The notes under the pieces are model-generated. The model did not search any database, was not told where the DNA came from, and worked only from the letters and a program-made list of their open reading frames with translations. A program made the translations under genes and the position numbers. This document shows positions 408-33,012 of a stretch of DNA of 64,000 nucleotides, piece by piece. Source of the stretch: an uncultured bacterium (GTDB taxonomy: Bacteria > Verrucomicrobiota > Kiritimatiellia > CAIKKV01 > CAIJXV01); contig CAIJXV010000105.1 of the NCBI GenBank assembly GCA_903824675.1, positions 62,001 to 126,000 on the forward strand, given 5' to 3'. Each line of letters begins with the position of its first letter. Within the stretch, counting starts at the first letter, position 1.

Positions 408-1988
408 TTACTCCAGCCATTTGACCGTCCACACATGTTCCACGGGACGGGCCTCCGCCAGCACCTTGGGCTCAACCCGGGTGGATGGCGGCGGCTCACC
501 TTTTCCGACCACGGCGCGAATGGTATTCGCCCGAACGGCGGCCAAAACCCGTAATGTTTGGGCGGCCACCGGACCCTTGTCCAGCAAACCGGCATCGAAT
601 CCGAGGGTCAGCTGTTCGGCGGTGGTCACCGCCACGGCTTCTCCATCGATGGCGATTTCATAGCGTCCGGCGGGAAGATGTTCCACGGCGAGCAGATATC
701 GGCTCAAGCCGAAGATCGAATGGGGCGAACCGAGGGACGTGGGGACGTCCACGCCCAGGGCCGGCCGGGCGAGGGGGTCGATCGGGAATGGCAGGGATTG
801 ATCCCATCGTTTAAAACTCACGATGCCCTTTTGGATTTTCAGATCGCGGACCTCGGCTTTTGTGGCGGACATAACCACCTGTTTTTCAGCGTCAATGCGA
901 ACGTCGCTGACCAATCCATCGGCATCCAATAATTTCAGCAAAACTCCGGCCATACATAAATGTCCGGCCTCGTTGGGATGGATTAAATCGGTCGGCCGTT
1001 CCGATCCGGTGTATCCGCTCAATTGGATAAAGGGTGGCGTAGCCGCATCCACTTGGGCGGCCCAACCGCGCAGAAATTGACGGAATGCCTCCCACTGTTC
1101 GACCTTTGCACCCTTCAGGCCCTGCCATTGGAGCAGGAGGTGATCCAGGTCGGGCGCGGGGAGGAGCGCTACCAGGGCGGGATTGTCGAGAAAGGGTTTG
1201 ACGGCAACCGAGAGTGCCACGCCTTGGGTTTTATAATTGGTCATGGTCAAGGGGGTGTCGAGTAGCTTGACCAGTCCCTGTCGCAAGGCGGCGACCCGGT
1301 CCCGCCCATAAGTGGCAGCGAAAATCTGCTGGAGCGGCGCCATCTGGTCGATAAACGGAACCTGATTGCGCGCCGCCAGTTGGCTGAGTTTGTCGGCGAA
1401 CTGACGGTTGACCGGATTTGAACGCCAGCCCTCGGGCCGGGTGGTTCCATCAACCTTCTGGCCGGTCAGCCGAAATTTGCCGCCATCGGAGGCATAGTCG
1501 GCCGGGGCCAGCAAGGGCGACGCGCTGAACATCAGCAAGCGCGCCCCGGTACCCTGCACGGCTTCAACAAACCGCTGGGGTGCGCTGTGGGGATTCTCCA
1601 GAAAATCCTGCTCGCCCGGAAAAACCTTGGCGTGATCATTCATCCCGTAATTCACCGTCACCAGGGTGGGCTTATACGCGGCGATGGTGTCCCGAAACCG
1701 AATGATGCCTTGAATATAAACTTCGCCCGATTTACCTGAATTGACCGTGGTGAAGGCCAGTCCGGGGTATCGGGCGCGGATGAACGCCTCCAGATAAACC
1801 GTGTATAAGTTCTGCCAGGTAATGCTGTCGCCGACCAGCACCCAGACATCGCCGTTCCGAACAAAAAAACCATTCGTCGGGAGGGCGGGTTCAGGAGGCG
1901 TGAAAACAGGCGCGGCGACCGCCGCTTGAGTGGCCAGCCCCAGCCCGAGCAGGGCGACGAGCAACCAACTTTTATGCGCTGATTTCAT
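408..1988 (-). CDS. Secreted SGNH/GDSL-family hydrolase
   Basis: This 526-residue protein has a clear Sec signal peptide (residues 1-26, hydrophobic LLVALLGLGLA, ending AVAA). The SGNH blocks are visible: GDSI at residues 53-56 (nucleophile Ser), NSGKSGE near 83-89, GMND at 115-118, and the C-terminal DLIHPNEAGH with the Asp/His pair. Enzymes of this fold are esterases or lipases, and in polysaccharide loci they commonly remove acetyl or other acyl groups from sugars. Its start overlaps the stop of the upstream DUF4838 gene by ATGA, implying translational coupling. About 170 residues beyond the catalytic domain form a C-terminal extension of unknown role. A periplasmic or extracellular carbohydrate esterase is the best inference. 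Confidence 0.87.
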   Translation of the reverse strand: MKSAHKSWLLVALLGLGLATQAAVAAPVFTPPEPALPTNGFFVRNGDVWVLVGDSITWQNLYTVYLEAFIRARYPGLAFTTVNSGKSGEVYIQGIIRFRDTIAAYKPTLVTVNYGMNDHAKVFPGEQDFLENPHSAPQRFVEAVQGTGARLLMFSASPLLAPADYASDGGKFRLTGQKVDGTTRPEGWRSNPVNRQFADKLSQLAARNQVPFIDQMAPLQQIFAATYGRDRVAALRQGLVKLLDTPLTMTNYKTQGVALSVAVKPFLDNPALVALLPAPDLDHLLLQWQGLKGAKVEQWEAFRQFLRGWAAQVDAATPPFIQLSGYTGSERPTDLIHPNEAGHLCMAGVLLKLLDADGLVSDVRIDAEKQVVMSATKAEVRDLKIQKGIVSFKRWDQSLPFPIDPLARPALGVDVPTSLGSPHSIFGLSRYLLAVEHLPAGRYEIAIDGEAVAVTTAEQLTLGFDAGLLDKGPVAAQTLRVLAAVRANTIRAVVGKGEPPPSTRVEPKVLAEARPVEHVWTVKWLE

Positions 1989-4402
1989 AATGCCGCCGGT
2001 TCATTGGGCGCGTAAATGAAGGCGCGCCGGTAGAGTCCGCCGAATTCGGCGTCATTCCAGATCCGCACGGTGACCTGGTTGGATGCCCCGGGTTTGACAA
2101 ACTTCGAAATATCGAGGTCGACGGTATGCGGGCTCATCCACCAGATCTTGTGTTCGCGATGTCCCACGTATTCGCCATTGACCCATACCCAGACTTCATT
2201 GACGGCCCCCCCCAGCCAGAGGTGCAGAGGTTTGCCGGTAAACGCCTTGGGAACGTTGGCTTGCATCCGATACCAGCCGTACCCGTCATAGTCATGCCCC
2301 CGGGCGTCCAAGGGTTTTTCCTGTTGTTCCCAGAGCAGGAAGGTGTCGCGGGTATCCCACTGCGAATCCTCGAACGTCGGCGCATACCACTCGCCGATCA
2401 CGCCTTCATTAAAGGGATCCCGGATAAACTTGCTCTGCCGGGGGAGCGCGGTTGCCAGGGTTCCTTTCCGTCCATCGGTCAGGGCGGTTAAATTCTCGTA
2501 TAGTTTAACGCTACCCGCAGAGGTGAAGGCGGTGCTGACCAGTAGATTGGATCGGCCAAAGGCGGAGTAGATGTCCTGCAGCCGGGACTTGCACGATTCC
2601 ATTTTCTCAGCCGCCTTTTGAGCGCCCGGGAAATCGAGTTCCGCGGCGGCCGAATGCAGAGCCGTGTAGGCTTCCAAATGATCGGCGATGAGGGCGAAGG
2701 CTTCCACCCGACCCCGGTAGGGTTCCTCGGTCACCGCCGCCCGGTCCGCCTCGACATGCGGGCGCAGTCCCTTCACGAAATCAGCGGTATAGATATGGTT
2801 GACCAGCCAATCTTCGTGGGCCTGAAAATCGGTGTCGCCCAACCGCTGAGCGCAGGCGTCCCACCAGGCGCGCACCTCGGGTCCGGCGGCACCGAAGAAA
2901 GAGCCGTAAAAGTCGGTCTTGATGGCATTCAAGTCGGCGGAACTGTTCCAGAGCAGTTTGGCGGTGACATAATAACTGATCCAACTCTGCATGAACGCTT
3001 TGCGTCCCTCGCGATTCATGCCCTTGATGCCGATCTGTTTGTAGAGGGGAGCATTGACCGCCATGTTCTCAGCGTCCCGTTCCGGCAGGAACATGCCGAG
3101 CAGAAACCCGGGGTTGTAGTCATAGATCCAGACATGCGGTGTCTGACGGCGGAATTGGGTCAGGATTTTGATGAATTCCTGCCGGCGCCAGGAGCGCGGA
3201 TCGTTGTTCGGGTGCAAAATGTCACAGGAAATGGGGGCGACAAAGAGCGACATGTTTTTTCTGAACTTCACGCCCTGGGGCGGGACTTCCCGGTTGGAAT
3301 AGGCGGCAAAGCCCAGAAACTGATTCGGGAAGGCATCCGCGATCTTGCAGGCAAAATCGAAGTATTCCTCGCTCATCATTTTATTGAAGACATAGGTGGG
3401 ATAGTAGAAATTCTGATTGGCTTTGGCACAGACAGGGCAATAACAGAAGGGGGCTCCGTCGGGGGGTGAAATGCCAATCCCCTGGTCGGATCCTTTGCGC
3501 TCATTCATTTTCTTGATGTTCTGAATGGCCGCCTCCAGCACCTCCGGAGAAGACAGACAGAGCATGGTGGAGTGAATTTTGGATTTGGGGGTCACCCGGC
3601 GCACGCCGGATTTATCCATGGCATAATATTCCGGATGGGTTTCGGCGAATTCGGCCGGCGGGAGGATCATGGAGAGAGATCCATCGCCGGGCATGGGATA
3701 GAGGGGGCTGGAGGGATTCATCCCATTGCGGATGAGCCAGGTCATAAACTCTTTGCGTTCGACCGCCGTGGGCGGTACCCAACCCGAATACCAGATATTG
3801 CGCACGGCGAAATCGGGACGCGAGAGAATATCCAGGGGCGGTATTTCGGGCGCGGATAATTGAGGCACCACCTCGCCCCAGGCTCCGGGAAAATACCAGC
3901 GGCATCCGAGTTTCTCCAGGAAAGCATATACGGAGTAGGCTGTTCCGCGATAGGGACCGTCCTGGTTGCCGGCCAGATAAATCGCCCGGCCAACGCTCTT
4001 GATGATATAGCCTTCCTCTTCAAATGCTTTTTCCGTGATGGACTTGTCGAAGCCGGAAGGAATTGCAATATGAGCCTGGGCTGCGGCTTTCGTGTGCCCG
4101 ACATAGAGGAACGTTTTTGCCTCAGCCGGCAGCGGATCCCCTTCCGTGATTAAAGCCAATTCCACCCCGCTCATTTTTGAGAGATAGGTTTGGAGATCCC
4201 GGGCGGGTTCCAGGATCTTTTCAGTGTAGGCCTTGACTTCGTTGGTCGCCTCGGGCGCTTTTTCAACGATGATGATCGCAACCGCCTGGTGGTCACGCGT
4301 CAGCGGCAATCCAGCCGGGGGTGCCCCCCGGACGATTTCGACGGCGGTCAGGCCCAGAACCACCACACATCCCGCGGTCATTTGCAGAAACTTATTTTTC
4401 AT
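1985..4402 (-). CDS. Secreted DUF4838 protein with C-terminal carbohydrate-binding-like domain
   Basis: This 805-residue protein has a signal peptide (residues 1-26). Residues roughly 50-190 resemble the N-terminal domain of family 67 alpha-glucuronidases, including the stretch LEKLGCRWYFPG. The middle third carries the DUF4838 region, with ISPPDGAPFCYCPVC and several tryptophan/tyrosine-rich blocks. The last 160 residues resemble a galactose-binding jelly roll like that at the start of GH2 enzymes (LHLWLGGAVNEVWVWVNGEY). DUF4838 proteins occur in polysaccharide-use loci but have no settled activity. The gene lies 9 bp after the 772-residue protein gene and overlaps the SGNH gene, so it belongs to the same transcript. 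It differs from the other two DUF4838 proteins here in its C-terminal domain. Confidence 0.85.
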   Translation of the reverse strand: MKNKFLQMTAGCVVVLGLTAVEIVRGAPPAGLPLTRDHQAVAIIIVEKAPEATNEVKAYTEKILEPARDLQTYLSKMSGVELALITEGDPLPAEAKTFLYVGHTKAAAQAHIAIPSGFDKSITEKAFEEEGYIIKSVGRAIYLAGNQDGPYRGTAYSVYAFLEKLGCRWYFPGAWGEVVPQLSAPEIPPLDILSRPDFAVRNIWYSGWVPPTAVERKEFMTWLIRNGMNPSSPLYPMPGDGSLSMILPPAEFAETHPEYYAMDKSGVRRVTPKSKIHSTMLCLSSPEVLEAAIQNIKKMNERKGSDQGIGISPPDGAPFCYCPVCAKANQNFYYPTYVFNKMMSEEYFDFACKIADAFPNQFLGFAAYSNREVPPQGVKFRKNMSLFVAPISCDILHPNNDPRSWRRQEFIKILTQFRRQTPHVWIYDYNPGFLLGMFLPERDAENMAVNAPLYKQIGIKGMNREGRKAFMQSWISYYVTAKLLWNSSADLNAIKTDFYGSFFGAAGPEVRAWWDACAQRLGDTDFQAHEDWLVNHIYTADFVKGLRPHVEADRAAVTEEPYRGRVEAFALIADHLEAYTALHSAAAELDFPGAQKAAEKMESCKSRLQDIYSAFGRSNLLVSTAFTSAGSVKLYENLTALTDGRKGTLATALPRQSKFIRDPFNEGVIGEWYAPTFEDSQWDTRDTFLLWEQQEKPLDARGHDYDGYGWYRMQANVPKAFTGKPLHLWLGGAVNEVWVWVNGEYVGHREHKIWWMSPHTVDLDISKFVKPGASNQVTVRIWNDAEFGGLYRRAFIYAPNEPAAL

Positions 4403-4411
4403 TTTTCACTC

Positions 4412-6730
4412 CTAATCCATTCCCTCTGTTACGCTTGACCCAAACTGTTCCTGTAAAACCCGGCGCAAAGGCTCCGCGTTGTGCCTGAAGTGGAGGGTCC
4501 CATCGGACTTGGCGCGCAAGGCCGATGCACATTCATAAAACAGAAAACTGTCATACCCACTCTGCCGACCCCATTCCATCAGGCGGGCGACGGGGATCTC
4601 ACAACCTTTCGGGGAATCGCCAATGTGGTTGGTGGATCGGCGATCTTCAAAAAAGTTGTTACAATACGGGGCGTAAGTGACCGGGATTCCCTTGGCGTGG
4701 GCCAACGCCAGCACCTCCCGTGAAAATTGAGCGTCGGGCCACAACGATTTCCCCGTCACGCGGTCGGCCAAACCTTCGTTGAGCCAGCTCCGCCAATCGC
4801 ACACGATATTCAGGCCCCCGCCGGTGCCGGGTGCCCCATCGAAAAAGCTGTCGATATGCAGGGCCAGCGTCTTGCCGCGTCCATGCACCACCGCCGCCGC
4901 CTCCCGAATAAATTGGGTCCATCCTTCGCCGCGAATACGCCGCCACAGATCATAATCGAAGGCGTCGGTTTCCCAGATATCGATCCCGGTCTGCCGAAGC
5001 ATCTCATGGCGCACGGGTTCTTCAAACCCGTATTCGATCCAGGCGAAATCGGCATGATGGCTTCCGGGCCGGATATCGATTCCATCGGCACCGGAGTCCA
5101 GCATGGCCTCGACCCACGTCATCCATAATTTCCGCGTCTCGGGGAAGGACGGCGACATAATCGCCAGCGGACTGCGATCTTTGCCCCGGGCCAGGGCCAG
5201 AAACGAACCCAGGCCGCGATCGAGCACCAGGGGGGTATTAATCGGATCCCCGCCCGACATCATATTGATGCTCGGCGATCCGGGATAGCGGTTGAATTCA
5301 AATCCCCCGGGGTATCCCGGGATCGAGCCGCCGGTGGCCTGATCCGGCCCCCAGTTGAATCGGGTCGCATGGTCATCCCGGCGTCGGGAAAGACCATAGG
5401 TGATCCGGGTTTCTTCCCCCTGATCCCCATAGATGTGAACGAGGTCGCAGAGCCGGTTGGAAAAGGATCGCTGATCGCCATCGATCGTGATGACCATAAA
5501 CGGGTCACGCAGGATGAGCCCGTCGAATCGAAACACCCGCACCCGGCGTTTTTCAGCGGTGGGCCGCGGGCCCGACGGGGTGGACTGATAGATCGAACGT
5601 TCCTCCACCTGTTCGTGGCGATGAATCGGGCCGTCATAGGGTCGGTAGGTGTTGTTATCGTTCGAAACCATGAAGGTCACCTGGTCCGGCGTGAAGGCCG
5701 CCGGTTCGGCGTCATCTTTGACCAGCTCGATTCGGGTCCATATCGCATTGTGTCCCGGACCGTGGACGGAAGGTTTGCGGGTGGTGAGCAAATGCTGGTT
5801 GTCCGCCGCCATGCGCGAAACCCATCCTGAACTGTTCCCAATGCGGTGAATCCGTCCATGCTTGCGGGCCTGCTCGGAAAACGGCGGCCAACTGTAGCCC
5901 TGGATGGCCATGTCCAGGGGTTTCAAGAGACCGATGAGTTCGATCCCCTGTCGGTGAGCGTGGTCGACGGCGGCCGTGAAAATATCGCCGACGGCGGAAA
6001 ATGTGTCCCGGGCATGTTTGGCGATGCTGAGCGGGGCGAAATCGAAATACTCATCCGCCTTGCGACCCAGATCGATCCAGGACACGCGCCGGGTGCCCCA
6101 TGACTTGAGTTCGGTGAACAACGACTCGAAGGTTTTGTGTGTCCAGGCGCAGGCCATGAGGTCGTCATTGAAGTCCACGGTTACTTCCAACGGATAACCG
6201 GTTTGGATGGCCTGAGGTCGGGGAGGTACAGGATCCAGGGGCTCCCCGGTGGCGATGACCTGGCGAACCCGGCATTTACTGAATCCCATATGCACCGTGC
6301 CTGCCCGGGCCGAGCCGCGAAGGTTGGGCGCGAACAGGAGGTCGACGGTTCCGGACCTCACGCGCAGGGTTTTATCGGTCCATTCAAAACCCAAATGAGT
6401 CGTGCCGTTTTCCAGCGGTACCGGCACCGTGGATTGAAGGATGGTATATCCGCCGTCTCCGGCCTGGTGCCGGGGCGTGGTGGCCGGGAGGAGCGAGATG
6501 TGTAGCGCCGTGCGCGAATCGGTTCCACAAAAAGCCGTTGCGCCCGTCTGGATTTGGTCCAGTTCAACGTCAACCTGCAGGCGGCGCCAGGCCTCATGGG
6601 GTAACGGCACAATGACTCCGTCCCAACCGTGGCAATCCCAGGCCCCTTTTTCGTATCGCGGAAACGCCGTGTCGGTGTACCAGCCGGTCGGCAACTGTCC
6701 GGCCTGAAACCGTTCATCGAAGATTTGCAT
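4412..6730 (-). CDS. Putative cytoplasmic TIM-barrel glycoside-hydrolase-like protein
   Basis: This 772-residue protein has no signal peptide, unlike its exported neighbours. Residues 1-165 look like a beta-sandwich (laminin-G or concanavalin type). Residues about 180-750 read like a hydrolase barrel: GIELIGLLKPLD, then DSGADGIDIRPGSHH, GKTLALHIDSF, and GIPVTYAPYCNNFFED near the end. These patterns recall family-10-like or GHL-type barrels with acidic residues at strand ends, but I cannot assign a CAZy family. Its start lies inside the end of the 978-residue DUF4838 gene (17-bp overlap) with AGAGGA just upstream, so translation is probably coupled. A role in cleaving imported oligosaccharides is inferred from operon context only. 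Confidence 0.65.
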   Translation of the reverse strand: MQIFDERFQAGQLPTGWYTDTAFPRYEKGAWDCHGWDGVIVPLPHEAWRRLQVDVELDQIQTGATAFCGTDSRTALHISLLPATTPRHQAGDGGYTILQSTVPVPLENGTTHLGFEWTDKTLRVRSGTVDLLFAPNLRGSARAGTVHMGFSKCRVRQVIATGEPLDPVPPRPQAIQTGYPLEVTVDFNDDLMACAWTHKTFESLFTELKSWGTRRVSWIDLGRKADEYFDFAPLSIAKHARDTFSAVGDIFTAAVDHAHRQGIELIGLLKPLDMAIQGYSWPPFSEQARKHGRIHRIGNSSGWVSRMAADNQHLLTTRKPSVHGPGHNAIWTRIELVKDDAEPAAFTPDQVTFMVSNDNNTYRPYDGPIHRHEQVEERSIYQSTPSGPRPTAEKRRVRVFRFDGLILRDPFMVITIDGDQRSFSNRLCDLVHIYGDQGEETRITYGLSRRRDDHATRFNWGPDQATGGSIPGYPGGFEFNRYPGSPSINMMSGGDPINTPLVLDRGLGSFLALARGKDRSPLAIMSPSFPETRKLWMTWVEAMLDSGADGIDIRPGSHHADFAWIEYGFEEPVRHEMLRQTGIDIWETDAFDYDLWRRIRGEGWTQFIREAAAVVHGRGKTLALHIDSFFDGAPGTGGGLNIVCDWRSWLNEGLADRVTGKSLWPDAQFSREVLALAHAKGIPVTYAPYCNNFFEDRRSTNHIGDSPKGCEIPVARLMEWGRQSGYDSFLFYECASALRAKSDGTLHFRHNAEPLRRVLQEQFGSSVTEGMD

Positions 6731-9629
6731 CGACGTCCTCTGGGGTTTTGATCAACAGCCCGTCTTTTTCCGCCAGGTCACGGGGGATCATAAGCGCATC
6801 CGGCGTGGCGGCAACACTATTCGGAATATTAAAAAACCAGATTTCCCGCGGGGTGGTGCGCAGGCTCCAGATGCTCCCGTCCATTCCGGCGGGCACGGGC
6901 ATGGAGACCAGGGTTCCCATGCCACCCGGCGAATATCCGACCGGTTTCCCCTCGGGCCCGTAGAGATCATGTTTCCCCCCGTTCCAGAAATACTGGAGGG
7001 TTCGGGTTCCTTTGGGAACATAGAAGACCGGCGAACCGAAACCCAACATTGCACCCCGCGGCCAAAGCACACTGGCGGGGCGATGGGTTGGATACGTAAC
7101 CGTCCACCCCGAGCCATTCGATTTGAATTCCAGGATATAGGTTCCGTTGGTGGGCACGGGAATGGAGAGCGAGTGGGGTTGGTTGTCGAGCGGCATCCGG
7201 CCCGTGGCCACGAGGTTGGTGTGCCGTGTTCCTCCGGGACCTCTCAGCCACCAGGTGGCATCCCCCCGGCCCCGGTATTGGGCCAGCCGGCCGGTCGAGA
7301 GTTCCAGGTGGATCGGTTCGCCGGTAAAGGAATGAAAGGCATAGCGCGGTCCGCCCTGATAATAATCCGTCCGCTGGCCTTCAGGCACCCCGGGCAACGG
7401 GACTTTATGAATTAAGCCGGAGAAGGGAGGAAAGTGGACCGGGACCAGATCCGTTAGATCAAAGAATTGTTCGTTCAGATCGCAGACCGTAAAATAACGC
7501 AAGCCCTCCTGGAAATTGGCTTCGATTTGATCCGGGGTTAATTCCTCGGCGCCGATCCATACGTCCGGCGCGGAACGGTTGCCCTTCAGCTTTCCGAATT
7601 TTGGATGTCCGCGTCCGCCGGAGGGGACGAGTTCTATATCCTTTAGTGCCACTCCATAGATCTTGCCCAACCGGTATGCGGCGGCCGCCCAATGCGTCAT
7701 GTAGGTGTAGCGTGAGGCATAGAGTTGGCGCATCATGGCGATAAACGCCGCTTTTTTCTTCACCGGATCCGTTTCCTCATCCAGAACCCAGCGCAAATGA
7801 AGGTATCGCAGGTATTGCTTGATTTCCGCCAACCGGGCCAGGACATCCGGCCGGCCCGCCGCGACGTTTGAGGCTTCGTCCACATCGTGGAACGCCTGGC
7901 CCAGGAGTACCGTGCTCACCAGGTTGCTCGAATCGGGGCTGATCCGTTCATGGTACCGTTTCATGATCGGGGCCGCAGGGCCGTAGGCTTTTTCATAAAA
8001 ATCCGCCAGGAGCGCCTCGGTATCGGCCTCGGGATTCCACATCAATTTGCTGGCCAGGTAATAGCCTCGTCCGTGAGGGCCCCAACTATTCCCGCTCTGG
8101 GCGGAAATGCCGATCGCCTTCATTCCCGCATACACCCGCATCCGGTCTTGGACCCAGGCGAGGCTCGCGATGCGGCCCCCGGGCAGTTTATCCTGGTCCC
8201 AGTCGTAAACCGAAAAGTATTCGTAAAAACCGAGATGGGTTGCTTTGCGGGGCCACTGTTCGAATAATTCGGCGTAGGAGAGTTTGCTCATATTGAACCC
8301 GGCGGTCAGCTCAACGTAGATATTCGGCTCCAAGGGGAAGGTGGGGGGCTCGATATGAAAGTTGTAGGCCAGCAGGCCGACCATCTTGCCGGGGAATTCT
8401 TGTTGCACCATCCGGGCGACTTCATTGGCCAACCCAAAAACCGAATCCGACACGGTGCCCAGTTTGCGGGAGGCTTCGCTCTCCGAATGACCTCCGCCGT
8501 CCGAAGGATCCAACGAAATCATGTCGATTTCAGGATGTTCCCGGAACTTTTTGCGCGCGTACTCCATGAACATCTGACGTACGGCCGGCTCGGCCAGTTC
8601 CAACTTGGCAAATACATTGATCGTCGGATGACCCTCGGCATCGAGGACGGGTTTGCCGACGGTGTCCGTGACAAAGCCCGTGCGTTTGCCGCCCACTTCG
8701 GCGAAATACTCGGGATGTTCCCGCAAAACGGCCAGGTTCTCTTTGACAACGTTCTGCCACATGTGCCCGGCATTGACATCGAGGCTCCCCCCCAACAGGT
8801 TGTGACGTTGCCAGTTTTTGAGATCGCGCGGTTCCCGGCTTTGGCCGCGACCGACCCCTTCATCGGAAAAACCGCCATCCGAGAAAAAGATCGATCGGGC
8901 GGCCATGAGGGGGCGATCCGTGATGTCCAATCCATACGCGAGATGGGTTTGCGTCGGAATAATTTCCCAGCGGCTATTGGGGAAATACCAGCGACAGCCC
9001 AGGCTTTCCAGAAAACGGCAGACGACGTGCGAAACACCCCGGTCGGTTGCCGCCACCAGCAACAACCGGTTGGTTTGGGTGCGGATGGCGAAGGACTCGC
9101 GCCCGTCGAAGAGACCCTGGATCGCCAGCGGCTCTGCCAGTTCCGGGGTCTGCCACTCCGCGCGCGTTCCGACCATGATGCCCCGGACGGGGAGGGATTC
9201 CGCCGGCGCCGATACCCGGCTGACCTCGGCGCTCCGGGCCTGCTCAATGTCCGGTTTGGTCTTGGGGACAACGGGTGCCAAATCGACGGGATGGCCTTCC
9301 GGGGTTTGCACCACAAAGGCGGCTCCGCTGATTCGCTGGAGGATGGTTGCCAGTTCGGCCGCGGCGGCTTGGGTGGCGGGGGAGGCTTTTCGGGAAATCA
9401 CGATGGGCAGTAAAGCCAGCCCGTTGGAGGCCAGCCCGATGGATGGCACGGCGGTGATATTCCGTTCGATTGCGGAGGGTTGAAGGAGGGTGGCCTTCCG
9501 GGTGGGCGGCATCATCAGGGTCCGTCCGTCTTCCGGATTGCCCACCGGGGCCTCCTCTTGGGCCGGACAGATCAGAATCCCGGCCAGACAGAACAGAAGG
9601 GCAGAACCGATCCTCAGTCGAAAATTCAT
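6714..9629 (-). CDS. Secreted DUF4838 protein, first gene of leftward operon
   Basis: I favour the ATG at 9629 (971 residues), because it gives a compact signal peptide MNFRLRIGSALLFCLAGI ending near CPAQ; an in-frame ATG at 9650 would add seven residues. The N-terminal part has the GH67-N-like signature LESLGCRWYFPN. The DUF4838 core contains ISLDPSDGGG and SDSVFGLANEVAR, followed by LGFYEYFSVYDW and LPGG. A C-terminal beta-sandwich ends in IPNSVAATP and IPRDLAEKDGL. The last two domains are clearly shared with the divergent 911-residue protein, so the two are paralogues; the 805-residue protein is more distant. It probably acts outside the cytoplasm on a glycan of unknown type. A conserved 37-nt element lies 57 bp upstream. 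Confidence 0.85.
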   Translation of the reverse strand: MNFRLRIGSALLFCLAGILICPAQEEAPVGNPEDGRTLMMPPTRKATLLQPSAIERNITAVPSIGLASNGLALLPIVISRKASPATQAAAAELATILQRISGAAFVVQTPEGHPVDLAPVVPKTKPDIEQARSAEVSRVSAPAESLPVRGIMVGTRAEWQTPELAEPLAIQGLFDGRESFAIRTQTNRLLLVAATDRGVSHVVCRFLESLGCRWYFPNSRWEIIPTQTHLAYGLDITDRPLMAARSIFFSDGGFSDEGVGRGQSREPRDLKNWQRHNLLGGSLDVNAGHMWQNVVKENLAVLREHPEYFAEVGGKRTGFVTDTVGKPVLDAEGHPTINVFAKLELAEPAVRQMFMEYARKKFREHPEIDMISLDPSDGGGHSESEASRKLGTVSDSVFGLANEVARMVQQEFPGKMVGLLAYNFHIEPPTFPLEPNIYVELTAGFNMSKLSYAELFEQWPRKATHLGFYEYFSVYDWDQDKLPGGRIASLAWVQDRMRVYAGMKAIGISAQSGNSWGPHGRGYYLASKLMWNPEADTEALLADFYEKAYGPAAPIMKRYHERISPDSSNLVSTVLLGQAFHDVDEASNVAAGRPDVLARLAEIKQYLRYLHLRWVLDEETDPVKKKAAFIAMMRQLYASRYTYMTHWAAAAYRLGKIYGVALKDIELVPSGGRGHPKFGKLKGNRSAPDVWIGAEELTPDQIEANFQEGLRYFTVCDLNEQFFDLTDLVPVHFPPFSGLIHKVPLPGVPEGQRTDYYQGGPRYAFHSFTGEPIHLELSTGRLAQYRGRGDATWWLRGPGGTRHTNLVATGRMPLDNQPHSLSIPVPTNGTYILEFKSNGSGWTVTYPTHRPASVLWPRGAMLGFGSPVFYVPKGTRTLQYFWNGGKHDLYGPEGKPVGYSPGGMGTLVSMPVPAGMDGSIWSLRTTPREIWFFNIPNSVAATPDALMIPRDLAEKDGLLIKTPEDVDANLR

Positions 9630-9686
9630 CGGGTCCGAGATGCATTGCATAATGACCGGATACTAATCCGATCCCCGGGGTTTCAC

Positions 9687-9723
9687 AATAGCTCCAGCGC
9701 GTCAATCTTTAACCCAAACGCAT
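9687..9723 (-). promoter_or_regulatory. 37-nt conserved upstream element, copy 1 (candidate AraC operator)
   Basis: Read on the minus strand this is ATG, one variable base, a 26-nt invariant block containing GGGTTAAAGATTGACG, one variable base, then GCTATT. Copy 2 at 10711-10747 matches at 35 of 37 positions in the same orientation relative to the DUF4838 gene it precedes. A TTGTGA-17-TAGTAT promoter can be drawn at its downstream edge, placing the element where AraC-type activators usually bind. Binding by the adjacent AraC protein is inferred. Confidence 0.7.
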
Positions 9724-9777
9724 GACCGATCCATGGTTGACGATAACGGGCGACACGCGCGGAAGGGCCGGGACCTT

Positions 9778-10752
9778 TTATTCTTGGGCCGCCCCGGTTT
9801 TGCCCCGGACTGCTTTCGCGCGGATCGTGCCCATATTATGCTGTTCCCACAGGTGGGCCCGGTAATTTGTGGGGGACTGGCCCACTTCGCGGGTAAATGC
9901 CCGGCTGAATGCATAGATGGAACTGAAGCCGCACTGCTCGGCGATTTCGGTGATATTTAATTCTGTCCGGCTCAATAGCGCACAGGCGGCAAACACCCGG
10001 GAGCGGCGGATATACTCGGTAACTTTCAGATTCGCAACCTGTCGAAAACAATTTCGCAGATACCCGGCGGAGACCGACAAGTCGCGGGCCATGCCGGCCA
10101 CCGTCAGCGGTTTTACCAGGTGGGTAGCCACGAGATGACAGGCGCGTTGGACGAGCCGATGCGGGGACAGCGCCGGATGCGGTTCCCAGACGGCCGGTGA
10201 AGCCGGGCGGACTTGCCGCAAGAGCCGCCGCAACAGATAAGACAGCAAGGCGGTCACTTCGTCCGCCGGGCTCATGGCCTTGTGGGTCAGGGTGTATTCC
10301 CGCAAAAGGGCGTCGAGAAACGGCTGGAGGTCCGGCGGCACCTCGATGGGGAGGTTGCGCAAGCGGTTGAGAGGGTCGGTGGATTGCAGTTCAAACGTGA
10401 CGAACAACCAGGTGACTTGATTACCGGGCCGAACGCAGTATTGGTGGGTTTGGAAGGGGAATACGAGAAGCGCCTGTCCCGGTGACAGCGCCAGACGACG
10501 GTTGTCGAGCAATAGTTCCGCTTTGGTTTCCAGATTGAAAATCAACATAAAGCGGTGATGCGTTGCGCTCGTGGCCGACACATCCAGACTGTTTTTGCAA
10601 AACATCAGGATATTGTGTGGATGCGGCATCTGCACATCCGACAGGCCGACAAAAAAATGTTCCGGCTCGCCGATGGCCCGTACGCGCTCGCGGAAGGGGG
10701 GAAGGTCGGCATGTGTTTGGGTTAAAGATTGACGCGCTGGGGCTATTTTCAT
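9778..10752 (-). CDS. AraC-family transcriptional regulator
   Basis: ATG at 10752 gives 324 residues; an in-frame TTG at 10764 would add four. The first half is a cupin-like sensor (MPHPHNILMFCK, LSPGQALLVFPFQTHQY), as in AraC regulators that sense sugars. The last 100 residues hold the double helix-turn-helix: LTVAGMARDLSVSAGYLRNCF, then ITEIAEQCGFSSIYAFSRAF and the closing GQSPTNYR. It sits between two divergent operons with DUF4838 paralogues at their heads and is the obvious candidate local activator. One 37-nt repeat overlaps its first dozen codons, so it may also control its own expression. The inducer is unknown. Confidence 0.93.
   Translation of the reverse strand: MKIAPARQSLTQTHADLPPFRERVRAIGEPEHFFVGLSDVQMPHPHNILMFCKNSLDVSATSATHHRFMLIFNLETKAELLLDNRRLALSPGQALLVFPFQTHQYCVRPGNQVTWLFVTFELQSTDPLNRLRNLPIEVPPDLQPFLDALLREYTLTHKAMSPADEVTALLSYLLRRLLRQVRPASPAVWEPHPALSPHRLVQRACHLVATHLVKPLTVAGMARDLSVSAGYLRNCFRQVANLKVTEYIRRSRVFAACALLSRTELNITEIAEQCGFSSIYAFSRAFTREVGQSPTNYRAHLWEQHNMGTIRAKAVRGKTGAAQE
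10711..10747 (+). promoter_or_regulatory. 37-nt conserved upstream element, copy 2 (candidate AraC operator)
   Basis: This is the plus-strand copy of the element at 9687-9723, with two mismatches. It ends 78 bp before the 911-residue DUF4838 gene and lies over codons 3-14 of the divergent AraC gene. A CATAAT hexamer at 10772-10777 could be the -10 box of the downstream gene, with no good -35 box, as expected for an activator-dependent promoter. Conservation between two otherwise unlike intergenic regions is direct; the regulatory role is inferred. Confidence 0.7.
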
Positions 10753-10825
10753 TTCCGGCTTCAAACTCTACCATAATCATTAATGAGTAGGCAAGAAACG
10801 CGAAATTCCTGCTCCCAAGATCCCT

Positions 10826-13561
10826 ATGCGCAATCGACGGCAACAACTGAGGATGACGGTCGCCCTGATGGGCGCTATCTGGGTTTCAGTCGGCCTGGTT
10901 CGGGCCGGAATTAGGGAGCCGACCGCACCGCTTCAAAGCCCCCCCTTTATTCTGCCCGCGACCCGCAACTGGTCGTCAACGAACACGCCGGTCAAGCTCG
11001 CTTCCGGTGGCCAGGCGTTGCTCCCCATCATCATCGCGCCCGACGCCGGCCCCGCCCTGCGCGACAGCGCCACAGAGTTGGCCCGCGTTCTGCGAAAGAT
11101 GACCGGGGCTGAGTTCCAGATCCAGACCAATGACGTCCGTTCAGGACTCGTGTTGGGCACCTCGCGTCAATTTCCCCATCCGGAGCTGGAACCGGCGTTG
11201 AAGTCCTACCGGGTCGCAGACGACCAGGAAGCGTATACCATTCGGACTTCGCCGGGGTGCATTCTTCTCCTGGGGGCCACCGAACTGGGGGCCGGCAATG
11301 CCGTTTATCGTTTTCTGGCAGAACTCGGCTGTCGCTGGCTTTCTCCTGCGGTCACTTGGGAGATCATTCCCGAACAGCGGGAGTTAACGTGGTGTCTCGA
11401 TATCACGGACCGGCCGGACATCCCGGGGCGACGGATCTGGTATGCCATTGCCACCCAGGAAAACCGGGAAGCCTATAACCGGTGGCGAGTCCGCAATAAT
11501 CACAACTCGGGCCTCCAGGTCAACGCCGGGCATGCCTGGTACCAGATTTTCGACGAGAATAAAGCGGCTTTCAGTGCCCATCCGGAATATTGGCCATTGA
11601 TCAACGGGGTGCGGGCGACCAACCTGCAGACGATTGTCGCCCAGCCGGATATCGGTAACCCGGCGGTGCGACAGATGTTCATCGATCACGCGTTGAATAC
11701 GTTGCGCAAGGATCGGGAAATGGCCCGGGCCAAGGGCCGTGCGGAAACCACCATGGTATCGCTGGAACCCAATGATGGCGGAGCATTTTCGGGCAGTCCT
11801 GAATTCAAGGCGCTGGGGACGCTCTCGGACGCCGTCTTTGGTCTGGCGAATGAAGTTGCACGCGCGGTGGCCCGTGAATTTCCGGGTAAAATGGTCGGCA
11901 TGCTGGCCTATCGGGAGCATGCCGATCCGCCCGATTTTCCGCTCGAAAACAATGTATATGTGCAGATCACGCCCGCGTTGTTCACCCAGCATACCCGCGA
12001 GGAGGTCGTCGCCCTCTGGGTGGAAAAATGCGCCAATCTGGGTTTCTATGAATATTATATGCCCTACGAATGGAGCCTGGATCAATTACCCGGGGGCAAT
12101 GCCTCTTCCCTCTCCTTCCTGGCCACCAGCATTCGACGGACAGTGGCGCAACATGCCTCCAGCATTGACGGGCAGGGGAGCGGCTGCTGGTTCCTCAACG
12201 GGATGGGGTACTGGATTGCCTCTCAATTGATGTGGAACTCGCAACAGGATGTTGAAACCCTGAAGACCGATTATTTGACTGCGGCGTACGGCCCCGCCTC
12301 CGAAACCCTGCGCCACTTTTATGCGTTATGGGATCCCGATACGCGTCCGATTATTTCAAAAAACCTGGTTTACGAAATGGCGCTCGCGCTGCAGAAAGCC
12401 GATGATCAAATCCGTGCCCTAAACGCTACGGATCCCCGCCGGTCCGCAGAGATTCACGCCCGGCTCGACGATCTTCGACACTACCTCCGGTTTCTGGAGT
12501 TGGACTGGACCCTTCAAGCCATGGGGAAGGAGGGGCCGTACGAGGTCCGCGAAGCGGCCTTTATCGCCTTGTTCAAACATATCCTGCGCACCCAAAGCCA
12601 TTATATGAACGAAGTGGAACTGGCCCAGCAAAACCTGTTTCAACAGCGTGGAGAAAAATCCGGGCTGATCCTGGTAAACCAGAAGCCGAAGCCGAAAGTG
12701 ATGATTAACACCAATCTTTTGCCCTGGGCCAAAAACAACCCCTGGAAAGTCTCCACTCCCTATACGGCGGAAGAGATTGCCGCCAACTTCCAATCCACGC
12801 TGGCGTATTTTAAGACGGAACCCCTTCAGGAGAAGCCTTTCTCCAGCGATCTCGTGCCGGTGCGCTGGTCGGGCCCCCAGGCGCCGGGGGTGCCCGCGAC
12901 CCGGGAGACCCTTTTAAAAGTCCAATCGTGCGCCATGCGGTGGGCGGTGTATTCCTTTGGTGAGCCGATCCGGGTTCGCGTGGAACCCGGCACGGTGTAT
13001 TCGGCTTTCATGCCGCGCCCTTGGACGCTCACCGATTCCGCCGGCCGGTTGATAGCCGAGGGCGGAGTGGCCCCGAAAGATTCGGACGAGCAGAAGAATT
13101 TAAAGATTTCAGTTCCCTCCGCCGGCAACTATGTCTTTGAAATTCAGGATCGGGGTGGCGGATTTCTCGGCGTTGCTTTCCCGTCCAACCAGCCGGCGAC
13201 TTTCCTGCTGACTCGCGGGGTTCGCATCAATGAACAGGGTCCGTCGACATATAATCAGCCGCGCTGCTTCTATGTGCCCAAAGGGACGGCCGTCCTCCAG
13301 TTCTTTTCCGGCGCCGCCCCCCGGCAAACGACCAAAGTATATGGGCCGGATGGCAAGGTCCAGGTGGTCGGCGGAGGGTTCCGGGAGTGGACTTCCGTTC
13401 CCATTCCGCCGGGACAGGATGGCAAAGTCTGGCGGATGGACGCCGGACTGCACACGTTGTGGTTTGCCAATGTGCCCCCGGGGGTGGCCGCCGCCCCTGA
13501 GCGACTGCTGGTTCCCCGTGATCTGGCCGAAACGGATGGGCTTGAGATTCGCAAGCAATGA
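10826..13561 (+). CDS. Secreted DUF4838 protein, first gene of rightward operon
   Basis: This 911-residue protein has a signal peptide (hydrophobic MTVALMGAIWVSVGLV after an Arg-rich start). It has the same layout as the 971-residue protein across the AraC gene: GH67-N-like domain with LAELGCRWLSP, DUF4838 core with SLEPNDGG and SDAVFGLANEVAR, LGFYEYYMPYEW, LPGG, and a C-terminal beta-sandwich ending VPRDLAETDGL. The C-terminal sandwich probably binds carbohydrate or anchors the protein. The gene is translationally coupled to the next by ATGA at 13558-13561. Two exported paralogues under one apparent operator suggest that both act on the same polymer or on two linkages in it. Catalytic activity of DUF4838 proteins is not established. 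Confidence 0.85.
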   Translation: MRNRRQQLRMTVALMGAIWVSVGLVRAGIREPTAPLQSPPFILPATRNWSSTNTPVKLASGGQALLPIIIAPDAGPALRDSATELARVLRKMTGAEFQIQTNDVRSGLVLGTSRQFPHPELEPALKSYRVADDQEAYTIRTSPGCILLLGATELGAGNAVYRFLAELGCRWLSPAVTWEIIPEQRELTWCLDITDRPDIPGRRIWYAIATQENREAYNRWRVRNNHNSGLQVNAGHAWYQIFDENKAAFSAHPEYWPLINGVRATNLQTIVAQPDIGNPAVRQMFIDHALNTLRKDREMARAKGRAETTMVSLEPNDGGAFSGSPEFKALGTLSDAVFGLANEVARAVAREFPGKMVGMLAYREHADPPDFPLENNVYVQITPALFTQHTREEVVALWVEKCANLGFYEYYMPYEWSLDQLPGGNASSLSFLATSIRRTVAQHASSIDGQGSGCWFLNGMGYWIASQLMWNSQQDVETLKTDYLTAAYGPASETLRHFYALWDPDTRPIISKNLVYEMALALQKADDQIRALNATDPRRSAEIHARLDDLRHYLRFLELDWTLQAMGKEGPYEVREAAFIALFKHILRTQSHYMNEVELAQQNLFQQRGEKSGLILVNQKPKPKVMINTNLLPWAKNNPWKVSTPYTAEEIAANFQSTLAYFKTEPLQEKPFSSDLVPVRWSGPQAPGVPATRETLLKVQSCAMRWAVYSFGEPIRVRVEPGTVYSAFMPRPWTLTDSAGRLIAEGGVAPKDSDEQKNLKISVPSAGNYVFEIQDRGGGFLGVAFPSNQPATFLLTRGVRINEQGPSTYNQPRCFYVPKGTAVLQFFSGAAPRQTTKVYGPDGKVQVVGGGFREWTSVPIPPGQDGKVWRMDAGLHTLWFANVPPGVAAAPERLLVPRDLAETDGLEIRKQ

Positions 13562-13602
13562 CCAAGGGGAGGCAGTCGTCTGCTCCCGGGAGAAAACACA
13601 AC

Positions 13603-14886
13603 GTGAAACGATTGAGACTGGCCGCCATTGGGTGTGGTGGGCGCACCTACACCTACCTGTCCCTGGCCGCACAAGAGCCAGACCACTATGAAATTGTTGC
13701 CGCCGCCGATCCCCAGCCGGGCCGCGTGGAGCGCATCCGTACCCTCTCCGGGAATCCCTCGTTTCGCGCTTTCCGGAACGACGCAGAGATTCTCGCGGTC
13801 GACCGGCTGGCGGATATCATGGTGATTGGCACCCAGGACTCTTTCCATTTTGAACCGTGCCAACGGGCCTTGGAAAAAGGCTATGACATTCTGCTCGAAA
13901 AACCGATCGCGACCTCTCCGGAAGAGGTCCTGGCGTTGGCCCGCCTCGCGGACCGGTTGGGCCGCCGGGTGCTGGTCTGCCATATTTTGCGCTATACGCC
14001 CTTCTATCGTAAAATCAAAGAGATTCTCGATTCGGGGATCGTCGGTGACATCATCACCCTTAATGCCATCGAATCGCTCGGTCCCTGGCATCAAGCCCAC
14101 TCGTATGTCCGGGGGCACTGGGCGGTCACCGAAAAAACGTCGCCCATGATTGTCGCCAAGTCCTGTCATGACCTCGATATTTGCTCCTGGCTGATCGGCA
14201 GTCCCTGCAAATCCGTTTCGAGTTTCGGCGGGTTAACCCATTTTACGCCTCAAAACGCACCTCTCGGGGCGCCCGCCCGCTGTACCGATGGCTGTCCGGT
14301 CGGTCATACCTGTAACTTCAATGCCCTGCTGTATGCCACCCGGGAACGCGCCTGGCTTTCCTCCGTCTATGATGAGGAAGCCGGGGCTCCCCTTGAGCAG
14401 ATTCGCGCCTGGCTCCGGACGTCTCCTTGGGGCCGGTGTGTGTATCGGTGCGACAACACGGCCGTCGATCACCAGGTTGCCTGCATGCGATTTGCCAACG
14501 AGGTGACGGCCACCTTTACCATGACGGCGTTCGATGCCGGCCGTTGCATCGAGATCTACGGGACCCGGGGGTTCCTGACCGGACGGAACGAGCGTCAGAC
14601 CGAGGGGGCCGATATCCTGTTCATCCAGCACCACACCTACAATCGAACCCGCTGGAATGTCACTTCTCCGGTGGGTGGATATGCCGGGCACGGGGGAGGC
14701 GATCCGGGTTTGATTCATGCGCTCTACGAGGAGATGAACAAACCCGATGCCGCCGACATGGCCTCTTCGATCCAGCGCTCGGTGGAAAGCCATCTGATGG
14801 GATTTGCCATGGAAGCCTCGCGGTTGACCGGGAAAACGGTGGATATGGCCGATTATGTCGGGCGAGTTTCAAACGAACTAAAGTAA
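13603..14886 (+). CDS. Gfo/Idh/MocA-family oxidoreductase 1
   Basis: GTG at 13603 is preferred because GGGAG lies ten bases upstream and the Rossmann strand starts at once (RLAAIGCGGRTYTY). An in-frame ATG at 13558 would overlap the DUF4838 stop and add 15 unstructured residues. The 427-residue protein has the family's EKPIATS motif (Lys of the EKP triad) and a C-terminal alpha/beta domain. A cysteine cluster, CTDGCPVGHTC, lies in the middle of the C-terminal domain and is partly mirrored in the next gene. The family oxidises or epimerises sugars and cyclitols with NAD(P) in the cytoplasm. It probably handles a monosaccharide released by the DUF4838 enzymes. Confidence 0.88.
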   Translation: MKRLRLAAIGCGGRTYTYLSLAAQEPDHYEIVAAADPQPGRVERIRTLSGNPSFRAFRNDAEILAVDRLADIMVIGTQDSFHFEPCQRALEKGYDILLEKPIATSPEEVLALARLADRLGRRVLVCHILRYTPFYRKIKEILDSGIVGDIITLNAIESLGPWHQAHSYVRGHWAVTEKTSPMIVAKSCHDLDICSWLIGSPCKSVSSFGGLTHFTPQNAPLGAPARCTDGCPVGHTCNFNALLYATRERAWLSSVYDEEAGAPLEQIRAWLRTSPWGRCVYRCDNTAVDHQVACMRFANEVTATFTMTAFDAGRCIEIYGTRGFLTGRNERQTEGADILFIQHHTYNRTRWNVTSPVGGYAGHGGGDPGLIHALYEEMNKPDAADMASSIQRSVESHLMGFAMEASRLTGKTVDMADYVGRVSNELK

Positions 14887-14898
14887 GGAGCAGTGAAA

Positions 14899-16179
14899 AT
14901 GTCGAAGCGTCGTCGTTTTGCCGTGATTGGCACCGGGAATCGGGCCGCCTACATGTTCGTGGCCCCCCTGATCGAGAAATTCTCCGATGAAGTGGAAGCG
15001 GTGGGGTTATACGATATTAACCCCGCCCGCGCCGAGGTGTGCAACGAGATTGTCAAAAGTTCGATTCCGATTTTTCGTTCGGCGGAGGAACTGATTCGAA
15101 AGGCCCGGCCCGAGGTGCTGCTGATCGCCTCGCCGGATGCGACCCATGCCGGTTACGTGATCCAGGGACTCAAGGCGGGACTGGACGTCTTTTGCGAAAA
15201 ACCGTTATGCACCACCCGGGAGCAGGTGACCGCCATCCGCAAGGCCGCCCGTGTTTCTTCGGGCAAGGCCACGGTCACTCATAACCTGCGGTGCCTCCCC
15301 AGCGCCGAGGTGCTCAAGCGGGAACTCCGGAACCACCGGATCGGGACGGTCCGGCACGTCATCTTCAATGAATATCTGGACCGGTATCACGGGGCGGATT
15401 ATTTCCGACGCTGGCACCGGAATTTTAAGAATAGCGGGGGATTGTTGCTGCAAAAGGCCAGCCACCATTTCGATATGGTCAACTGGTGGGTGGGCAGCCG
15501 GGCTCAAACCGTCACGGCACAGGGGGGCCTGCTCTATTATGGCAAAAACGGTCCCTTCCGGGGAACGCGCTGTTCAACCTGTGCGCATACCCGAAAATGT
15601 CCCCACTATGCCGATCTGTTTGCAAATCCCTTCATGCAAAAACTCTATCAGAGAGTCGAAAAGGTGGACGGTTATTTGCGAGATCGCTGTGTTTTTGGCA
15701 ACGATATCGATATCACCGATACCGCCAACCTGACCGTCACCTTCGAGAACGGCGTCAAGATGGTTTATTCTCTGATCGCTTATGCCTCCTTTGAAGGGCA
15801 GCAGGTGGCGCTGGAAGGAACGCAAGGCCGTCTGGAGTGGCATCTCAAATACAACACCGGCTGGGCTGCGGGCAGCAAAAAAGGATCTAAAAAGGCCTCT
15901 TTGGAACAAAGCGGGGAGCACAGCGAAAAGGTGGAATATCTGCACCCCTTCAATCACGAGGTCACAGATCTAACCCCGCCCGCTCTCCAAGGGTCTCATG
16001 GAGGGGCCGATGCGAAGATCTGGGATTTCATCTTTAAACGCCGCCCTCCCGCCGATCCGCTGGGCCAGCGGGCCTCGTTGGAGGAAGGCATCCAGGCCGT
16101 ACTGATCGGGATGGCCGCCAACCAAAGCATCGCTTTGGGCGGAGCGCCGGTGAATGTGCAGACCGGCCGCCCGGTCTAG
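14899..16179 (+). CDS. Gfo/Idh/MocA-family oxidoreductase 2
   Basis: ATG at 14899 has GGAG eight bases upstream; a GTG at 14893 lies too close to that site. The 426-residue protein starts with RFAVIGTGNRAAYM (NAD(P)-binding turn) and carries FCEKPLCTT and a HHFDMVNWW segment that supplies the catalytic His. A cysteine cluster CSTCAHTRKC lies at the same relative place as in the preceding gene, possibly a metal site. It begins 12 bp after the previous stop, so the two dehydrogenases are expressed together and may act in sequence, or form a mixed oligomer, on the same sugar. The C-terminal part contains a Lys/Ser-rich loop (KKGSKKASLE). Confidence 0.88.
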   Translation: MSKRRRFAVIGTGNRAAYMFVAPLIEKFSDEVEAVGLYDINPARAEVCNEIVKSSIPIFRSAEELIRKARPEVLLIASPDATHAGYVIQGLKAGLDVFCEKPLCTTREQVTAIRKAARVSSGKATVTHNLRCLPSAEVLKRELRNHRIGTVRHVIFNEYLDRYHGADYFRRWHRNFKNSGGLLLQKASHHFDMVNWWVGSRAQTVTAQGGLLYYGKNGPFRGTRCSTCAHTRKCPHYADLFANPFMQKLYQRVEKVDGYLRDRCVFGNDIDITDTANLTVTFENGVKMVYSLIAYASFEGQQVALEGTQGRLEWHLKYNTGWAAGSKKGSKKASLEQSGEHSEKVEYLHPFNHEVTDLTPPALQGSHGGADAKIWDFIFKRRPPADPLGQRASLEEGIQAVLIGMAANQSIALGGAPVNVQTGRPV

Positions 16180-23731: not shown

Positions 23732-23822
23732 CGGTCAGGGCAGGCACGCGGCTACACCATAAGATACAACCCCACTCTATGAGCGGAATCGGATTTTACG
23801 ACTTTCGATTTGCCTTTCGAGT
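23732..23822 (+). repeat. 91-bp direct repeat, copy 1
   Basis: It matches 24959-25049 over its whole length, most strongly in GCGGAATCGGATTTTACGAC and the following TTTGCCTTTCGAGT. The two copies flank the MITE-like element and the DUF4160/DUF2442 genes, so they may mark the edges of an inserted or recombined block. Confidence 0.8.
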
Positions 23823-23925
23823 CCCGTCTACGGAACCGGGGTGGCGATAAAGAGAGGCAGGGCATCGGGGGCGACGAAACCAAAGCGCCGGACAACCACA
23901 GGCAGGAAGCGCCCTGAGCTTCCCA

Positions 23926-24128
23926 AATCCTCGCCTAATGCTGTTCCGTTGTTTCGCTGGCGTTCCTTGAATCCAACTCCCACACGGCGCTGACGGCGCA
24001 GCGCCCTCCAGCGGAATCCTCTCGCTGGTCGCGCTGTCGTCTTCTGGCGGGCGGCGCGCTGTCGCCGCCGTGTCCATGCGGCTGCCATTGACCAGTGTGC
24101 GGAAGGTCTGAAGGCTTAGGCGAGGATT
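23926..24128. mobile_element. MITE-like element, copy 1 (TIR ATCCTCGCCTAA)
   Basis: This non-coding element of about 200 bp starts AATCCTCGCCTAA and ends with its exact inverse TTAGGCGAGGATT. The inverted ends extend outward with one indel (AGCT-CCC on both sides). The interior is shared with 61574-61797, including GCTGACGGCG and CGTGTCCATGCGGCTGCCAT. No transposase is encoded, so it would need to be mobilised in trans. Classification as a MITE is inferred from the inverted ends and the second copy. Confidence 0.7.
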
Positions 24129-24958: not shown

Positions 24959-25049
24959 CGGTCAGAGCAGGCACGCTGCTACACCCCAAAAGTAGCCCCG
25001 TTCTATAAGCGGAATCGGATTTTACGACTTTCGGTTTGCCTTTCGAGTG
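24959..25049 (+). repeat. 91-bp direct repeat, copy 2
   Basis: Same orientation as 23732-23822, about 1.2 kb away, with scattered substitutions. It lies on the far side of the DUF2442 gene. Confidence 0.8.
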
Positions 25050-32430: not shown

Positions 32431-33012
32431 CCAAGTCAAGCCAGACCGATGGGCTGGCATAAGCCGTGCGGTATGCCCGGCTATACTGGGGAAGGGCAAG
32501 TAAAGCCAGACCTGTGGGCTGACAAAAGCCGTGCGGTACGCCCGGCTATACTGGGGAAGAGTAAGTCAAGCCAGACCGATGGGCTGGCATAAGCCGTGCG
32601 GTATGCCCGGCTATACTGGGGAAGAGTAAGTAAAGCCAGACCTGTGGGCTGGCATAAGCCGTGCGGTACGCCCGGCTTTACCGGGGAAGGGCAGGTAAAG
32701 CCAAGACCTATGGGCTGGCATAAGCCGTGCGGTATGCCCGGCTATACTGGGGAAGGGCAAGTCAAGCCAGACCTGTGGGCTGACATAAGCCGTGCGGTAC
32801 GCCCGGCTTTACCGGGGAAGGGCAGGTAAAGCCAAGACCTATGGGCTGGCATAAGCCGAGCGGTACGCCCGGCTATACCGGGGAAGGGCAGATAAAGCCA
32901 GACCTGTGGGCTGACATAAGCCGTGCGGTACGCCCGGCTATACTGGGGAAGAGTAAGTAAAGCCAGACCTATGGGCTGGCATAAGCCGTGCGGTACGCCC
33001 GGCTTTACTGGA
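32431..33012. repeat. Tandem array of nine 65/66-bp hairpin-rich units
   Basis: Units begin CCAGAC or CCAAGAC at 32441, 32506, 32571, 32636, 32701, 32767, 32832, 32898 and 32963. Each can fold CCAGACC-3 nt-GGGCTGG and GCCGTGCG-GTA-CGCCCGGC, both with one central mismatch. CTTTACC/GGTAAAG (or CTATACT/AGTAAAG) pairs across the unit joint. Odd units carry GAT or TAT in the first loop and mostly TATGCCC; even units carry TGT and TACGCCC, often with GACA. This gives a higher-order period of about 131 bp. The array starts ten bases after the GH32-like stop and ends 100 bp before the sulfatase start. Confidence 0.95.

Follow-up and report, generated by a model that had tools for sequence, protein, structure and literature searches.

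A predicted tandem AraC-family operator precedes two divergent DUF4838 operons and overlaps the first codons of the regulator gene

Two divergent operons, each beginning with a DUF4838 gene, flank a gene for an AraC-family regulator in the window (the whole stretch of 64,000 nucleotides analyzed here). Coordinates of these genes and of the regulatory features discussed below are listed in Table 1. The content of the operons, including DUF4838 proteins, a GH2-like domain, a GDSL esterase and GFO/IDH/MocA oxidoreductases, suggests a role in glycan or glycoside use, judging from domain assignments.

Table 1. Genes and predicted regulatory features around the araC-family gene (window coordinates).
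Feature	Position	Strand	Remarks
GDSL-like lipase/acylhydrolase, gene 4 of minus operon	408..1988	-	
DUF4838 protein with C-terminal Glyco_hydro_2_N domain, gene 3 of minus operon	1985..4402	-	Pfam
772-aa protein, gene 2 of minus operon	4412..6730	-	no Pfam or NCBIfam match
DUF4838 protein, 978 aa, gene 1 of minus operon	6714..9650	-	Pfam E=2e-31; likelier start 9629
-10-like TAGTAT	9660..9665	-	22nd base past copy 1 core end
-35-like TTGTGA	9683..9688	-	overlaps copy 1 end; placed by register with 11 other sites
Copy 1	9687..9723	-	tandem AraC-type operator (predicted), upstream of minus-strand DUF4838 operon
Copy 1 half-sites	about 9720-9707 and 9699-9686	-	
araC-family regulator gene	9778..10752	-	HTH_18/HTH_AraC at C-terminus
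Copy 2	10711..10747	+	tandem AraC-type operator (predicted), upstream of plus-strand DUF4838 operon
Copy 2 half-sites	about 10714-10727 and 10735-10748	+	
-35-like TTTTCA	10746..10751	+	overlaps copy 2 end
-10-like TACCAT/CATAAT	10769..10777 (10769-10774 / 10772-10777)	+	22-25 nt past copy 2 core end
DUF4838 protein, 911 aa, gene 1 of plus operon	10826..13561	+	Pfam E=1e-31
GFO/IDH/MocA oxidoreductase, gene 2 of plus operon	13558..14886	+	
GFO/IDH/MocA oxidoreductase, gene 3 of plus operon	14893..16179	+	

The regulator gene starts at 10752 or 10764 on the minus strand. Its product has a C-terminal double-HTH DNA-binding domain (HTH_18, E=2e-20; HTH_AraC, E=2e-14; Pfam) and showed profile matches to the AraC and SoxS structures. 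The NCBIfam model of E. coli AraC aligned to residues 75-305 with E=1e-18, under that model's cut-off. In the structure prediction of the regulator the DNA-binding domain alone was confident; a cupin-like ligand-binding domain may form the N-terminal part, where strands were predicted at 48-122 with low confidence (mean pLDDT of 53). Close orthologues showed 55% (G009), 50% (G004) and 49% (G007) identity, and a contig search for related loci returned two close orthologues only, in G007 and G009.

The initial annotation had described a near-identical 37-nt element in front of both operons, and we found the two copies where it had placed them. Copy 1 occupies the gap separating the 3' end of araC from the minus operon, and copy 2 lies within araC codons 2-14, which accounts for the reported overlap with the first codons of this gene. 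The copies are identical at 35 of 37 positions, including a 26-mer without a break (GTTTGGGTTAAAGATTGACGCGCTGG), and the match does not extend into the flanks of either copy, which are unrelated, as had been noted. Each copy is directed at the DUF4838 gene downstream of it (9650/9629, minus strand; 10826, plus strand), so that the claim of one orientation relative to the operon preceded also holds. Scatter at random genomic places had been named as evidence against a regulatory element, and such scatter was not seen. With up to 3 mismatches, the 25-mer TTTGGGTTAAAGATTGACGCGCTGG had exactly 2 occurrences in the 4.24-Mb genome and 0 in 287 relatives. The 16-mer core, with up to 2 mismatches, matched at two extra places, which is chance level (1+1 in the reversed control), and TTTGGGTTAAAGATTG, with up to 3 mismatches, gave 25 matches versus 25 in the reversed control, indicating no extra genomic copies. 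A sequence-only model derived from eight sites (R1) assigned 35.3 bits to copy 1 and 34 bits to copy 2 and detected no sites beyond these two in this genome. The predicted regulon in this genome comprises the two flanking operons (plus araC) only. Other repeats were also present in the window: exact matches over 24 nt were found between regions at about 24.0 kb (23782-24110) and 61.7 kb (61599-61790), with a copy of one edge of this possibly dispersed repeat at 25.0 kb (25008-25030), and at 32433-32600 a stretch recurs in direct orientation at a spacing of 130 bp, again with an exact match over 24 nt.

The half-site anatomy of the element was derived by comparing the araC 5' ends of close orthologues. 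In the alignment with relatives it resolves into a pair of half-sites in direct orientation, separated by 21 bp, with the consensus TGCGTTTTGGTTAAAA-N6-TGCGTTTTAGCTATT; the halves in G009 are CGTTTTGGGTAAAG and CGTTTTGGCTATTG. When four sequences were evaluated jointly, the 21-bp direct repeat was equalled by 0 of 2000 column permutations at any offset. Promoter-like features occupy a regular position relative to the site. At nearly all of 12 sites, a -10-like hexamer (TATAAT-like) starts about 21-25 nt past the site, mostly at 22, and the mean score of this register was reached by 0 of 2000 shuffles at any position (p<1/2000), while the -35 position of the 12 sites overlaps the site end and is a poor match. 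Plausible -35/-10 elements had been proposed downstream of both copies, and this proposal is supported by -10-like hexamers at matching distances. A generic sigma-70 scan reported 0 promoters, and a terminator scan likewise returned nothing; the -10-like hexamers are below the generic sigma-70 consensus, as is expected of activator-dependent promoters. By analogy with known systems, a 21-bp tandem repeat followed by a -10 about 22 nt downstream corresponds to the geometry of AraC-family class-II activation.

A search for the 37-mer in related genomes had been suggested. The exact 37-mer was absent there and a degenerate tandem motif was kept; since only this motif persists, the proposed test of absence from the same promoters in relatives was read at the motif level. 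A degenerate tandem pattern was built from G000 (this genome), G009 and G004 and searched in eight genomes. With 0 mismatches, it recovered its building sites and two new ones, G004:C38:26096, which precedes a DUF4838 gene, and G007:C227:3081, which precedes a beta-propeller (PD40) gene. Two clear sites with 2 mismatches were found in G007, one before a DUF4838 gene, adjacent to a broken araC-like frame, and the other before a gene lacking a Pfam assignment. G009 has the araC copy only, and in G004 the second site is 14 kb from the first on the same strand. Sites in relatives are each directed at the gene downstream, and the genes preceded include DUF4838, GFO/IDH/MocA and others, consistent with a set of functionally related targets. 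In G007:C152:6375-7073 (L092), an AraC-like N-terminal frame adjoins a DUF4838 gene; the frame stops prematurely and is apparently broken, and the operator between the two is still intact.

When R1 was scanned over 17 genomes of the order, strong sites were detected wherever araC has a close orthologue (49-55% identity), in four of four such genomes versus none of the 13 others (Fisher, 0.0004), which is the co-occurrence of motif and AraC orthologue that the initial annotation had proposed to look for. The best of the weaker matches was G004:C38:17096, before a GFO/IDH/MocA gene. Of the other weaker matches, G008 and G004:C18 each had one at the 5' end of an araC homologue (33-37% identity), and one more in G008 preceded a related GFO/IDH/MocA gene; the weak sites of G008 and G004:C18 scored 13-18 bits and were accepted chiefly on position. 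The initial annotation had predicted the regulon of a single sugar-sensing regulator. Its idea of a shared site is retained, as a predicted AraC site characterized by the 21-bp repeat, the -10 distance, recurrence and co-occurrence, and a scattered set of targets was not found in this genome. A sugar as effector is conceivable from the gene context (DUF4838, GFO/IDH/MocA, GH2-like and GDSL), which points to glycans. An alternative, which we consider unlikely, is that the operator belongs to another regulator, such as an unseen second AraC-type protein, and that this araC is merely one target. These genomes encode many AraC-type proteins (26 candidates at first look in G000) and the binding partner is a predicted one; besides, the intact close orthologue in G007 (C433) has no site at its own 5' end, with three sites elsewhere in that genome. 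However, the distribution of strong sites follows the close orthologue, the 5' ends of araC homologues carry such sites in four genomes, and a 21-bp tandem repeat with a fixed -10 distance is an AraC-family architecture, all of which favor the protein encoded between the copies.

No in-frame ATG, GTG or TTG was found from the element to the conserved EPEHFF block, and for this reason copy 2 must be coding in this genome. Coding by copy 2, the placement of both mismatches between the copies at third codon positions in the araC frame and the IAKTxQSLxKT-like N-termini common to close orthologues would fit a conserved N-terminal peptide of AraC, with DNA identity reflecting coding constraint and copy 1 being a fragment of a lost araC. 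We regard this explanation as very improbable. The frame of the motif differs among araC genes, reading GAA AAT AGC (E-N-S-H-I-D..) in G008 and G004:C18 versus AAA ATA GCC (K-I-A-P-A-R..) in G000, and the sites at G004:C38:26096, G007:C227 and G007:C552 are outside any araC gene. Because of these frame differences and non-araC sites, conservation is attributed to DNA and not to peptide, and coding constraint is refuted as the sole explanation. Copy 1 as a relic of a second araC gene was likewise rejected, as the tail beyond its 37-mer showed no resemblance (local p=0.17-0.44) to the coding tail of araC. A point against the operator reading is that the third codon positions within the element agree with G009 at 8/12, which is high and yet not exceptional, as 36 of 305 windows of the gene reach this value.

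The placement of the copies also raises two readings other than an operator. They are inverted around a 987-bp segment holding nearly all of araC, whose frame would survive inversion, and could be the ends of an invertible segment, with the body of the araC gene switching orientation between them. This is extremely unlikely, since the copy 1 flank would provide no start after inversion (codons run to TAA without ATG, GTG or TTG), relatives have single copies or copies that do not flank araC, and the -10 register is left unexplained. Long-range pairing within the araC mRNA, in which copy 1 in the 3' UTR and copy 2 in the 5' codons would control araC translation, would take advantage of the complementarity of copy 1 to the mRNA start if transcription reaches 9687. 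It appears scarcely credible in view of G009, which has the araC copy only, and of G004, where the second site is distant and on the same strand, and it does not predict either the 21-bp repeat or the promoter register.

At the level of the class, AraC homologues were identified in 35 of 346 genomes. Among held-out class-level homologues, the best match was at the same place in 22 of 28 (shuffled mean 2.5, maximum 9). A repeat with a 20-bp offset (AGTCAATATnGTTAAA) was found at the araC 5' end in L104-L123 and others, and a -10 at 22 nt was absent at these repeats (p=0.98). Because of the 20-bp offset, the different sequence and the lack of a -10 at 22 nt, class-level repeats were not counted as the same site; they may represent an operator of this subfamily that has drifted. 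The divergent gene beside class-level araC homologues often begins with the motif '(E)LDPxFVPAVLWNRAY'.

The computations show the repeat architecture, where the repeat recurs and lies in relatives, its register with the promoter, its joint occurrence with araC and its conservation at the DNA level. From the sequences, we infer that the AraC-family protein whose gene lies between the copies very probably uses the element as its operator; this protein would activate both DUF4838 operons in a class-II manner and also bind its own first codons. In the proposed mechanism, the AraC-type protein would bind an effector, predicted to be glycan-derived, and a dimer with two double-HTH domains would occupy the tandem half-sites at their 21-bp separation. 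Next to the second half-site is a poor -35, with the -10 about 22 nt downstream, and RNA polymerase would be recruited to the DUF4838 operon, so that the operon on each side would be activated from its own copy. The regulator bound to copy 2 would sit on its own araC codons and limit its own transcription; because copy 2 lies within these codons, AraC probably blocks transcription of its own gene.

In E. coli, the PBAD half-sites are spaced by 21 bp and araC is autoregulated by AraC. At araI1-I2 of PBAD, a dimer binds two direct-repeat half-sites, the promoter-proximal one of which overlaps the -35 (PMC7408454). The predicted operator resembles araI1-I2 in having two direct half-sites with the second at the -35, but it differs in half-site sequence, in the position of one copy inside regulator codons and in the presence of two copies serving two divergent operons; a CRP site and a distant looping site were not identified here. 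AggR, an AraC-family protein of enteroaggregative E. coli, uses a site separated from the downstream -10 by 21-22 bp, the optimum being 22 bp (PMC6392122). The -10-like hexamer described here similarly begins about 22 nt past the site, whereas the site is a long tandem repeat from an uncharacterized PVC-group lineage, in contrast to the AggR site, which is described as single (PMC6392122). According to part of the published account, Caldicellulosiruptor AraC-family carbohydrate regulators are predicted to be activators, and tandem repeats precede the promoter elements close to glycan-utilization genes (PMC8579813). Tandem repeats near probable glycan genes are also found in our case, with the difference that phylum, motif and target families are other ones, and a DUF4838 link is not described in that part of the account (PMC8579813).

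The predicted operator thus adds a new, well-supported case to an ordinary type of switch, the AraC-family operator, and its most unusual trait is that it is embedded in the regulator's own codons. In G008, the site is duplicated almost identically along with roughly 100 nt of araC 5' region and promoter (G008:C1:1690-1790 and 3630-3730; L088), and the duplicate of the araC start region stands before a GFO/IDH/MocA gene, a case of apparent regulon growth by copying. It is conceivable, although somewhat short of probable, that in this AraC lineage the operator also serves as the regulator's first codons, the reading frame having extended across it, and in a frame that differs from lineage to lineage. 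One stretch would then be an activator site for the divergent operon, a roadblock for araC and coding sequence, and the regulon would grow by copying the start region before new glycan operons.

These findings provide a concrete predicted operator and regulon for an uncharacterized AraC subfamily in a poorly studied lineage of the PVC group. They also tie DUF4838 proteins to a regulated, probably glycan-linked program alongside GFO/IDH/MocA dehydrogenases, and they point to an operator inside the first codons of its predicted regulator that is kept as DNA regardless of reading frame.
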